From IMG/VR virus record IMGVR_UViG_3300046522_000138, positions 1 to 49,395 of that record: 49,395 bases of DNA. The stretch is one strand, 5' to 3'. Within the stretch, counting starts at the first letter, position 1. Each line of letters opens with the position of its first letter. The DNA is from a virus. This document shows, piece after piece, positions 38,629 to 42,365 of this stretch. The position numbers were made by a program, and so were the translations under genes. Below the pieces are notes generated by a model. That model was not told where the DNA came from. It saw nothing but the letters and a program-made list of their open reading frames with translations, and searched no databases.

Positions 38629-38784
38629 CTAATTAATCTTACTAATAAACTCGTTAGCGAAGCCATCAATCTCACTCATAAGAGCCTCGCCATCAAACTG
38701 CAACTCCCCGTCCACATCCTCGTAGACGTAGTGCTCACGATTGTCGTAGAGACGCTGCTTTAACTCATTGAACACTTCTTTCAT
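38629..38784 (-). CDS. Hypothetical 51-residue acidic protein
   Basis: The frame MKEVFNELKQRLYDNREHYV...SKIN is acidic, preceded by AAGGAGGTTGT and overlaps the upstream stop by a few bases. It fills the gap between two coupled genes. The function is unknown. Confidence 0.6.
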   Translation of the reverse strand: MKEVFNELKQRLYDNREHYVYEDVDGELQFDGEALMSEIDGFANEFISKIN

Positions 38785-39182
38785 ACAACCTCCTTACGCC
38801 CGTTAGTCAGCGTAACAAATCGCTTTTCCTCTGGAAGATATTCGTTCCAAGTCTTGCTCCACGGGCCACGGAAACTGATCGCCCAAGTTTTGTCTGCCAT
38901 GCCGTGCACTTTGTGCATCCTATCCCGGCTTGTGAAGAATGGCTTGAACGACGGCTTAATAAAGTTCCCATCATAACAGTTTTCAGACAAGCGTACATCT
39001 TCAAACAGCAACCCTTTAATCACCCAACTCCAAGCATTGAATGCGTGGTTGTGGTAGGCTTCTCGGCTACCTTTGTCGAAGCACAGCAGGACGATACTAC
39101 CGAATCGCTTAGTCTCAAAGAGCCAGTAGCCTGTAACATTGGATTCTTGTCCACCATCTTTACTCTTGAAGAACCATTTCAT
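38781..39182 (-). CDS. Cupin-like phage protein
   Basis: This 133-residue beta-rich protein has the metal-binding-like block AYHNHAFNAWSWVIKG (near 42-57) and a later MHKVHG, the spacing of a small cupin barrel. It ends with many aromatic residues (ISFRGPWSKTWNEYLP). The substrate is unknown. It is coupled by ATGA to the upstream gene. Confidence 0.6.
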   Translation of the reverse strand: MKWFFKSKDGGQESNVTGYWLFETKRFGSIVLLCFDKGSREAYHNHAFNAWSWVIKGLLFEDVRLSENCYDGNFIKPSFKPFFTSRDRMHKVHGMADKTWAISFRGPWSKTWNEYLPEEKRFVTLTNGRKEVV

Positions 39183-39349: not shown

Positions 39350-40141
39350 TCATTTTCCAGTGTTGACAATACCTTTGAAGTCTCGCGGAATTACAATGGT
39401 CTGCACCTTACCTGCTTTAATCGCTTCTGCAATAATCAAATCAGCCTGTGCATTCATGTATTCACGTGCTCCAGCATTCGCATTCAAGGCTGCAATACGC
39501 TCTGCCTCTTTCTTAGCCGTCTGCACTTCCACTTCTTTTGCAGCGTATTCGCTCTTTGCCTTAACAAGATTATCCGCAGCAGCTTTGACAGCAGCAGATG
39601 GTGCAATACTCTTTACCTGAACTTGTGTCACCAGAATGGAGCCGTCCAACTTTTCTTCGTGTAGAGTTGCTTTGACTTGCGCAAGAATTTCCTGCTCAAT
39701 GTCTTGGCGCGCATCGTTCATCTTCATAGCCTCATACTTGCGAGTGACTTTAAACACAGCATTGCGCACAGTGGTTTGCAGGTAGGTGTACATCAGCTCC
39801 ACTTCACCTTGCTCATTCACGAAGTGAAAGCTTCGATTCTTGTTCTTGTACAGATCGCTTACGCTTGCAGGGTTGATGCTGTACACTACTGTGACATCGA
39901 AATCAGACATTGTGGAATTGTCTGCGGCGAGTGGGGTCATATCTTTAACATCCACCGACAGTTCTTTGATTGGGAAGTCAATCATCGAGCCAACAATCGT
40001 CTGATTGAACGTACCTGCTTGGCGCTCACTGTCCTCAATCGTCTTGTCGAAATTTACCCGTAGACCAACCTTGCCAGTGTCAACGACATGACAACCTGCC
40101 AGAGCAAATGCAAGTACAGCAAAACCGATAATCTTTTTCAT
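39350..40141 (-). CDS. SPFH/prohibitin-domain lipoprotein
   Basis: The 263-residue protein has a lipoprotein signal (MKKIIGFAVLAFALAGC, lipidated Cys17). A prohibitin-like SPFH domain follows (TGKVGLRVNFDKT, VVYSINPASVSDLY, YTYLQTTVRNAVFKV, EILAQVKATLHEEKLDGSILVTQV), then an Ala/Glu coiled coil (YAAKEVEVQTAKKEAERIAAL). SPFH proteins form oligomeric membrane rings; phage copies are suspected to affect lysis or superinfection. The ATG at 40141 follows AAGGAGAAAGAG. Confidence 0.85.
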   Translation of the reverse strand: MKKIIGFAVLAFALAGCHVVDTGKVGLRVNFDKTIEDSERQAGTFNQTIVGSMIDFPIKELSVDVKDMTPLAADNSTMSDFDVTVVYSINPASVSDLYKNKNRSFHFVNEQGEVELMYTYLQTTVRNAVFKVTRKYEAMKMNDARQDIEQEILAQVKATLHEEKLDGSILVTQVQVKSIAPSAAVKAAADNLVKAKSEYAAKEVEVQTAKKEAERIAALNANAGAREYMNAQADLIIAEAIKAGKVQTIVIPRDFKGIVNTGK

Positions 40142-40512: not shown

Positions 40513-40540
40513 GAAACGAAAGAGGGCTTTCGCCCCCTCG
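40513..40540 (-). terminator. Terminator of the secreted-protein cassette
   Basis: On the minus strand GAGGGGGC-GAAA-GCCCTC (one bulged G), followed by TTTCGTTT. It lies seven or so bases after the stop of the gene at 40547. Confidence 0.75.
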
Positions 40541-40546
40541 TCCTAC

Positions 40547-40918
40547 TTAAGCGATGCCACTACCTTCGCTTTTCTTCGATTTACGACGAGCCAGCTTCGT
40601 CACACCAACCAGACTCACCAGACCGAAGCCCAAGCCAGCCATTGCCAGCGAACCCGAATCATCCTCTCCCTGAGGAATAGACACTTTGCCAGCCAGAGCG
40701 TGCGCCGAGACAGACACAGCGCAGCAATTGAGAGTACCTACGCTTGCAGCGACATCTGGCGACGAAACCTCCGACGAATCGACACTTGGTGCGCTTACTT
40801 CGCTGCCGTTGATGTATGGCGAGCTAACATCTTGCGCGACAGCGGAAGCGGATACGTGTTGAGCGAATGCAGAGCCTGCCAGCATGGACAGGAACATAAC
40901 GGCGATAACATTTTTCAT
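40547..40918 (-). CDS. Secreted repeat protein with C-terminal membrane anchor, moron-like cassette
   Basis: The 123-residue protein has a signal peptide (MKNVIAVMFLSMLAGSAFA, cleavage before Gln20) and a Ser/Val-rich repeat region (SSP.ING, SEVSAPSVDS, SEVSSPDVAAS). A Cys pair follows, and then a C-terminal hydrophobic helix (SLAMAGLGFGLVSLVGVTKL) ends in ARRKSKK. The tail resembles a sorting signal of the PEP-CTERM type but lacks the Pro-Glu-Pro box. It has its own promoter and terminator. It may alter the host envelope or block superinfection; this is inference. Confidence 0.75.
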   Translation of the reverse strand: MKNVIAVMFLSMLAGSAFAQHVSASAVAQDVSSPYINGSEVSAPSVDSSEVSSPDVAASVGTLNCCAVSVSAHALAGKVSIPQGEDDSGSLAMAGLGFGLVSLVGVTKLARRKSKKSEGSGIA

Positions 40919-40971
40919 GGTGTTGCCTTTCTTAGTTGTTGTTAAATGTGTGCTTTGTAGGGCACAGAAGA

Positions 40972-41000
40972 AGTATGGCAGAGCTTGAAGGTCTTGTCAA
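40972..41000 (-). promoter_or_regulatory. Sigma70-like promoter of the secreted-protein cassette
   Basis: On the minus strand TTGACA (41000-40995), 17 bases and CATACT (40977-40972), 54 bases before the ATG at 40918. CATACT recurs in other promoters of this genome. Confidence 0.8.
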
Positions 41001-41007
41001 GCAGAAA

Positions 41008-41385
41008 TCACCAAACTTCTGTACGAGTCACAATCCCGTTAAAGTCGTAGAAGCCTGCTGGTTCAGGTGAAGGCTTCTCTTTATAACGAATCCGCGATGC
41101 GATAAGCTTTTTGTCTTGGTCGCTGACGTACTCAGAACAAAATACGTGAGTGAACTGACAGCCTGCCACGTTGGGCCACGCTTCGGAGCCAGCGTCGTAA
41201 AATTTTACAACACCGCCACTCTCGCTCACATATTGGAGCGTAGTGTGTTTGAAGAGGCCACGACGAACAGGTTCAATACACTGAGCCTTCTGCCGCACAC
41301 GAATGTCGAACACTGCTACTCGTGCTGTAGGGTCGTTGTCCGCAATTTGTATGGCTTTTTCGGACACTTGTTCAAAGGTTTTCAT
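41008..41385 (-). CDS. Hypothetical protein after thyX
   Basis: A 125-residue mixed alpha/beta protein (MKTFEQVSEKAIQIADNDP, AVFDIRVRQKAQC). It is coupled by ATGA to the thyX stop. It contains four Cys but no clear motif. The function is unknown. Confidence 0.6.
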   Translation of the reverse strand: MKTFEQVSEKAIQIADNDPTARVAVFDIRVRQKAQCIEPVRRGLFKHTTLQYVSESGGVVKFYDAGSEAWPNVAGCQFTHVFCSEYVSDQDKKLIASRIRYKEKPSPEPAGFYDFNGIVTRTEVW

Positions 41386-42365
41386 TTAGGCACCTTGTAA
41401 TTCTCGCCAGGAATAAGCTTCCTATTCATGATCCAACCACAAAACTGAGCACTCCACAGCTTTCCGTCACGGTCTGCATGACTGATGCCCGGTTCCCAAG
41501 ACTCAGCAAAACCGGGATGATTGACCGCCATTTGGTATCCGTTCGGCTCCTCACCACAAGGCTTCATAGGAGTTGCCTGATGCTGCATAGCACTGGCATG
41601 CTTCCTATCGTCACCAACAAGCTTATCATACACTCGCAAGCATTGCTCAAGGCCATAGTCTACCGCACGGAAGCTGACCGCACCTGTACGGGCAGAGGAC
41701 ACTTTGATAGCCTCTTCCGTGTTTAGAATGATAAGATCGCCTTCTTGCCCCTCTGTGTCAGCAACGAAAAACATTTGTTTGCCCGCGTCATCTCGCATCT
41801 CCTCCACATACGGTAAGTGCCACTCTCCCGGTTGTAGCAGTTGCGGAACACTCTGCTCATGGGCGCGGTACATAGCATTGGCTGCATCTTCGAGGGTTGG
41901 GTCAGCGTCGCTGTGATTCCTCAGCCAATACCAATTTTGCCACTCTGTTGCACTCATCACTCCCTTGATTACTTGATACGCCTCCGTTGGACGATTGAAA
42001 ATTTGCTTGGCATAGCCCGCTTCATAGTACCCCTTGGCGAACTCGCTTGCACTATTCTTAGCCATCTCCCACCACTCTTCTGGTGTGTACATACCCTTGA
42101 TAAGTGCAGCATGTGGGCCGGCATCAATCATACCCTTGTTCGCCTTACCGAAACGTACTGGCTTAGCTGTAAGTTGCAGTTGCATTTTCTCGAAGGGGAT
42201 AGCCCTAGAGCTTGCAGCATTCCGGCAGATCATAGAGTGGGTTAATATTTCCGCCCACACAATACGAGGTACTTCAATTTCAAACGTGGTGAGTCGGTTT
42301 CCTTGCGGACTCACGCTGTCCTTAAGAACCCTAATGACGCTTTCTTTACCTTTTACTTCAATCAT
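41382..42365 (-). CDS. thyX: Flavin-dependent thymidylate synthase
   Basis: This 327-residue enzyme makes dTMP from dUMP with FAD and methylene-tetrahydrofolate. The ThyX motif reads HSMICRNAASSRA (43-55), a variant of RHRxxSxNxxSxR found in phage enzymes; NWYWLRNHSDADPTL and SSARTGAVSFR supply further dUMP and FAD contacts. It is longer than typical bacterial ThyX (about 220-250) because of a C-terminal extension. It supplies thymidine for replication alongside NrdAB. Confidence 0.92.
   Translation of the reverse strand: MIEVKGKESVIRVLKDSVSPQGNRLTTFEIEVPRIVWAEILTHSMICRNAASSRAIPFEKMQLQLTAKPVRFGKANKGMIDAGPHAALIKGMYTPEEWWEMAKNSASEFAKGYYEAGYAKQIFNRPTEAYQVIKGVMSATEWQNWYWLRNHSDADPTLEDAANAMYRAHEQSVPQLLQPGEWHLPYVEEMRDDAGKQMFFVADTEGQEGDLIILNTEEAIKVSSARTGAVSFRAVDYGLEQCLRVYDKLVGDDRKHASAMQHQATPMKPCGEEPNGYQMAVNHPGFAESWEPGISHADRDGKLWSAQFCGWIMNRKLIPGENYKVPK

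Follow-up and report, generated by a model that had tools for sequence, protein, structure and literature searches.

A clade-wide phage cassette for an exported, membrane-anchored repeat protein with a probable role at the envelope of the infected cell

Results and Discussion

A stretch of phage DNA taken from IMG/VR as a record of 49,395 bases (referred to here as the window) contains a gene that defines a new protein family, one that is clade-wide and was not filed before. As read from the sequences, the gene is accompanied by a promoter-like site and by hairpins at both ends of its predicted message, all of which are conserved among relatives, and it occupies a fixed locus in a single phage clade. 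Its product combines a signal peptide and a tail held under selection, an anatomy that is well supported by the comparison of alleles, and it probably modifies the infected cell's envelope. The parts of the cassette are as follows, each with its basis in brackets.

40972..41000, minus strand: sigma-70-type promoter, TTGACA-17-CATACT, with the TG of an extended -10 (sequence match; position conserved among alleles)
40949..40966, minus strand: 5' hairpin TGTGC-cctacaaa-GCACA, 18 nt long and beginning 5 nt downstream of the -10, at the predicted start of the mRNA (conserved in alleles with upstream DNA; energy z -3.9 in the window)
40547..40918, minus strand: gene for an exported, membrane-anchored repeat protein of 123 residues (open reading frame, allele comparison, signal peptide and tail analysis)
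40862..40918, minus strand: signal peptide, residues 1-19, predicted cleavage after AFA (A-F/L-A/S-Q in all alleles)
40661..40861, minus strand: disordered, variable Ser/Val/Ala/Pro repeat region with a conserved CC pair, residues 20-86 (AlphaFold2 pLDDT mostly <50, alleles, repeat test)
40571..40660, minus strand: conserved tail, residues 87-116, comprising a DSGS patch, the membrane helix LAMAGLGFGLVSLVGVTK and the basic end ARRKSKK (allele conservation, pN 0.11 vs pS 0.42)
40522..40539, minus strand: terminator hairpin GAGGGGGCGAAAGCCCTC, then TTTCGTTT (GC-rich; equivalent behind all 18 alleles)

A new family of small phage proteins

The open reading frame at 40547-40918 on the minus strand has an ATG start, preceded by AAGAAAGG, and 123 codons, and is surrounded by a long run of minus-strand genes, in line with the long operon of an initial annotation made from the window alone. 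When IMG/VR was scanned with the 123-residue protein, two relatives at 71% identity were obtained; the resulting two-row alignment retrieved four more, and an alignment of the tail only retrieved 24 loci. Together with that of the window, 18 distinct proteins were collected, corresponding to 17 further distinct alleles in IMG/VR phage contigs, several of which are 87-93 kb long. No relatives were found in cultured phages (DNA and protein), plasmids or GTDB species genomes, the last scanned both with the full-length protein and with the tail only, and none above threshold in Pfam, NCBIfam, PHROGs or PDB sequences, bearing in mind that pattern-based scans miss distant relatives and that some collections may lack records very near the window. 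Judged by the primase-helicase, the nearest cultured phages are Pseudaeromonas phage KLEP7 and Pseudomonas phage vB_PsaM_M1, at 64-69%, and both are without the gene. A search of tRNAs for a clue to the host yielded none. The possibility of an artefact or chance open reading frame was rejected, given that the reading frame is conserved and that pN lies much below pS in the tail.

A predicted transcript delimited at both ends

The promoter consists of TTGACA (41000), a spacer of 17 and CATACT (40972), that is, 10 of 12 matches plus a TG before the -10. On a single sequence, this site is not exceptional, as 8 promoter-like sites were found in this stretch vs 7.1 expected in shuffles, and further strong matches exist elsewhere in the window. 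The promoter was taken as real because it is conserved across alleles, and not because of its score in the window. Indeed, in alleles with full upstream DNA, a TTGACA-type box followed, after a spacer, by a -10-like hexamer recurs at a similar distance from the gene, with differing flanking genes; part of the alleles share the CATA(C/A)T form, with others carrying, for example, TAATAT or TATCCT. At another strong promoter of the window (33551-33500, minus strand), an inverted repeat, TGGGCACAC...GTGTGCCCA, extends across the spacer and start around the -10 in an operator-like manner.

The 5' hairpin, absent from the description given in the initial annotation, begins a few bases past the -10 in most alleles with upstream DNA, although in L025 and L028 the automatic choice picked another stem. 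Its stems vary by compensatory changes (GTGCTC/GAGCAC, GCGCTG/CAGCGC and GCACTG/CAGTGC), and nothing comparable follows the window's other strong promoters. In E. coli, mRNA is known to be stabilised by a 5' hairpin (PMC3997798). At the other end, the terminator hairpin is kept behind all 18 distinct alleles, in most cases with a GAAA loop; as its U tract is short, termination may be partial. With a promoter-like site and hairpins at both mRNA ends, the cassette looks built for a discrete, stable and, by extension, abundant message. As such, allele conservation confirms the proposed arrangement of a single gene between a promoter and terminator of its own and, at the sequence level, the view of the cassette as a self-contained unit.

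A shuffled middle between constant ends

The Sec signal peptide (AFA^Q in the window) is kept in each of the 18 alleles, ending in A-(F/L)-(A/S)-Q, which supports the export initially predicted. Behind it lies a repeat region of about 65 residues in the window and roughly 49-72 across the alleles. The Ser/Val/Pro repeats already noted there are real by a shuffling test, the 10-residue repeat QDVSSPYING / SEVSAPSVDS / SEVSSPDVAA standing 3.6 s.d. above shuffles. Across alleles, the middle is assembled from exchangeable pieces (DVSSPYIN / SEVSAPSVD; ASDAKDGRRPAPSLSDCCGVPVSAP; VAASVGTLNCCGVPVSAP; SATATAQDVSAPYIGA), and in many of them shows an internal periodicity of 10, 19 or 22 residues. A CC pair is retained within this otherwise variable part.

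In the tail, all 18 alleles offer an acidic, Ser-containing patch, a helix of the form (A/S)MAGLGFGL(V/F)(S/G)L(V/M)G and an (A/S)RRK basic end, with MAGLGFGL and RRK being invariant; about half continue for several residues past the basic cluster. This conservation, together with a hydropathy of 1.73 over 19 residues in the C-terminal segment, upholds the helix and basic end as the likely anchor. Over all pairs, the 24-residue helix-and-basic block gave pS 0.42 and pN 0.11, as compared to pS 0.46 and pN 0.28 for the signal peptide. Because pN is far below pS in that block, the tail is held by selection on the protein. Hence, by allele comparison, strong purifying selection maintains the helix and tail, and the middle is shuffled. 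AlphaFold2, run with 2 and with 18 sequences, returned two helices with disorder between them at low confidence (mean pLDDT 48 and 51, respectively). The acidic residues before the helix and the Arg/Lys residues after it point to an outside-to-inside orientation by the positive-inside rule.

A near-invariant helix (MAGLGFGL in 18 of 18 alleles) next to a free ectodomain, expressed from a host-type promoter, is also what would be seen were the protein to block a host inner-membrane function, such as secretion, stress sensing or a transporter, early in infection, the conserved helix being the binding part. Such a blocker would have no known counterpart or target, and this explanation is considered rather unlikely.

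A constant gene at the head of an exchanged region

The cassette lies in a region of replication and nucleotide genes. In every locus with enough upstream DNA, it stands behind a thymidylate synthase gene, this being of a 327-aa Thy1-like type, a 217-235-aa ThyX type or a gene whose identity to the ThyX type is only 22-31%. Between the synthase and the cassette are found an HNH gene in L001 and L021 and a 125-aa open reading frame in the window and L023. The synthase itself (41382-42365, minus strand, in the window; L001-L035) swaps between the Thy1-like and ThyX types among close relatives. The ribonucleotide reductase large chain likewise drew attention: in G039 (G039:C1:46033-48759) and G040 (G040:C1:79877-82603), two homologous parts form one 909-aa frame with a split near residue 284 that looks intein-like, and in G018 the same split point separates parts lying in separate frames.

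The cassette is followed by a PHROG 18067 gene, which is optional, and further downstream, in most loci, by varying genes for exported proteins or lipoproteins, the set including two SPFH types, two small lipoproteins, secreted proteins of 119 and 98 aa and an exported TPR-like protein. The locus of the cassette is the same throughout, even where the synthase and downstream genes are swapped. By gene content, then, the downstream stretch is exchanged and envelope-directed, and the cassette is its constant head. In the window, the cassette is adjoined by an SPFH/Band_7 lipoprotein gene (39350-40141, minus strand; L017, L029), replaced in relatives by the second SPFH type or by small lipoproteins. 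The PHROG 18067 gene (L001:2391-2732) is interrupted by an in-frame stop in L001 and L002. Unusual cargo is seen in a cupin-type protein (38781-39182, minus strand), which matches a PHROG named cysteine dioxygenase (E 1.4e-22).

An exported SleB-type wall hydrolase is encoded 2.5 kb upstream of the cassette and recurs upstream in many loci. Together with a single helix whose small residues could allow it to oligomerise, this neighbor calls to mind a lysis or lysis-timing protein (spanin-, antiholin- or pinholin-like) working with the hydrolase. Such a role is judged improbable, as the cassette has its own terminated transcript and a host-type promoter, the protein matches no lysis family and the hydrolase gene is not adjacent. 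A one-piece spanin was rejected, no lipobox being present.

Distribution and the question of a moron

A profile search located the gene in 16 of 48 records. In a tree drawn from one short tail protein, 10 carriers and a single non-carrier (G002, the record of L005) formed one clade with support of 100/100, and all other non-carriers fell outside. Since 10 of the 11 members carry the gene and the remaining non-carriers lie outside, the ancestor of the clade probably had it, with loss or replacement in one lineage. In L004-L006, the cassette is missing and the SPFH lipoprotein gene comes directly after the synthase gene; between these two, L005 has a TTGACA box and a 5' hairpin unlike that of the cassette, the promoter position being as in the cassette. 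Two records, G034 and G037, encode identical 148-aa tail proteins and have different alleles and repeat regions, from which it appears that the cassette or its middle recombines; as the allele changes independently of the 148-aa protein, the repeat region is not keyed to it.

A moron, in the usual sense, is a sporadic autonomous insertion. The cassette was initially described as moron-like, and this stands in so far as it is a self-contained unit, with a promoter and terminator recognizable at the sequence level, that is absent from G002 and from all outer relatives searched. It does not stand with respect to sporadic insertion at varying sites, given the fixed locus and the presence in 10 of 11 clade members. 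On this distribution, the cassette is a stable clade gene. Near-universal presence within the clade could also suggest a minor virion or membrane-assembly protein. However, such an assignment seems very improbable for a product with a signal peptide, encoded in a replication and nucleotide region under its own promoter and missing from clade member G002 and all outer relatives searched.

Comparison with C-terminal sorting signals and other known systems

PEP-CTERM, GlyGly-CTERM and LPXTG tails share a motif-helix-basic layout at the protein end (PMC1569441, PMC3237569). The likeness to a surface-sorting tail drawn in the initial annotation survives as regards this layout; it fails for motif and curated score. 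Like PEP-CTERM/exosortase substrates (TIGR02595), the 123-residue protein has a signal peptide, a low-complexity middle without homologues and a C-terminal helix followed by a basic cluster near the end. Unlike them, its helix is longer, with ~20 residues to the Arg pair vs 14 described, and it is phage-encoded, with one per genome. No Pro-Glu-Pro precedes the helix in any of the 18 alleles, and six alleles compared with the NCBIfam PEP-CTERM model at E up to 10 gave no match. As with GlyGly-CTERM/rhombosortase substrates (TIGR03501), a motif-helix-basic end sits on an exported protein; here, however, an acidic/Ser patch, [ED][DN]S.S, takes the place of GlyGly, several alleles exceed the 0-5 residues allowed after the basic cluster, and the phages have no rhomboid. 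For LPXTG/sortase substrates, no motif was seen and the best score was 14.3 bits vs 15.9 needed. The WGxxGxxG family (NF041742) also comprises small proteins made up of a signal peptide, spacer and C-terminal helix, and most alleles scanned gave a full-length match to it that stayed sub-threshold (best E 0.00015; 22.3 bits vs 35 needed) and lacked the WGxxGxxG motif.

Nonetheless, the tail might be a true sorting signal, with a host exosortase- or rhomboid-like enzyme cutting at the helix after export and handing the repeats on to the surface or exopolymer, by which the phage would change the exterior of the cell. In favor of this are the layout, a tail more conserved than the other parts of the protein and weak sub-threshold matches to PVV-CTERM (best E 0.0023), the WGxxGxxG family and LPXTG. 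This reading is unlikely, given that neither a PEP nor a GlyGly motif is present, that all matches fall below curated cut-offs, that only one protein per phage bears the tail, that the pattern-based GTDB scan found no relative and that about half the alleles extend beyond the basic cluster. Furthermore, 13 phage records contain no exosortase or rhomboid gene, on which ground a phage-borne sorting enzyme was rejected. It would be more improbable still that the clade encodes a substrate of an undescribed host C-terminal sorting enzyme, recognized via [ED][DN]S.SLAMAGLGFGL[VF][SG]LVGV[ST]KLARRK, and coats infected cells with a shuffled repeat protein. A literature search found no paper on phage-encoded tails of the PEP-CTERM type.

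The general layout of signal peptide, acidic part, helix and basic end is shared with inovirus major coat proteins, to one Pfam model of which (Phage_coatGP8) a single allele gave a chance-level match (E 0.66); unlike these, the 123-residue protein comes from a tailed phage and has a variable repeat ectodomain. P22 SieA and T4 Imm and Sp are, like it, phage-encoded envelope proteins, with action expected at the inner membrane or periplasm, although no sequence similarity to them was detected. In architecture, SieA and Imm differ from the cleaved signal and tail anchor predicted here.

A probable envelope role

Several lines of evidence fit an envelope role, namely the 17 further alleles, in which the N- and C-terminal parts recur, the conserved promoter and hairpins, the low pN (0.11) relative to pS (0.42) in the tail, the exported protein and lipoprotein genes directly downstream in most loci, and the exported wall hydrolase upstream in many. 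The envelope address, likely strong expression, free ectodomain and fixed helix would suit bulk action at the inner membrane. It is thus tentatively proposed, on sequence grounds, that the product of the cassette is made early and in abundance, resides in the inner membrane and modifies the infected cell's envelope, most likely blocking superinfection.

In this proposal, the cassette would serve as a stand-alone expression unit in a clade of tailed phages of roughly 88 kb. From it, the sigma-70 RNA polymerase of the host would generate one short mRNA, protected by the 5' hairpin and ended by the hairpin terminator, and such a discrete, protected message could yield much protein from one gene. 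The protein would be exported by the Sec route, with the signal peptide being cut after AFA, and the C-terminal helix and Arg/Lys end would lodge it in the inner membrane, so that ~65 disordered residues protrude into the periplasm. In this position, the protein may coat or block inner-membrane sites, so altering the envelope. The likeliest benefit, as a guess, would be that DNA entry by later-arriving related phages is blocked.

Superinfection exclusion is a well-known job of such phage envelope proteins, which belong to many families, such that similarity to any one is not required. The 123-residue protein indeed has none to a known exclusion family, Pfam and PHROGs, searched at E up to 1, having given nothing above chance level. 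One known exclusion protein, P22 SieA, acts in the inner membrane against DNA delivery (PMC10883804). For the present protein, exclusion is the leading guess, held at clearly less than even confidence. Against it count the lack of similarity to known exclusion proteins and the independence of the alleles from at least one tail protein, as seen in G034 and G037; moreover, the helix might owe its near-invariance to some quite different partner. The initial annotation, which had proposed host-cell modification such as superinfection exclusion, is accordingly supported in part, having been right in observation and half right in interpretation.

The products of this cassette form a family of small envelope proteins of phages, not filed before, in which a constant membrane tail is joined to a module-shuffled part, periplasmic in the predicted topology. 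Their transcript is insulated at its 5' and its 3' end, and this analysis found no cultured phage close to the clade. Were the protein to exclude other phages, this would be a new type of exclusion; were a host enzyme to cut the tail, a phage would be exploiting a bacterial sorting route, which is rare.
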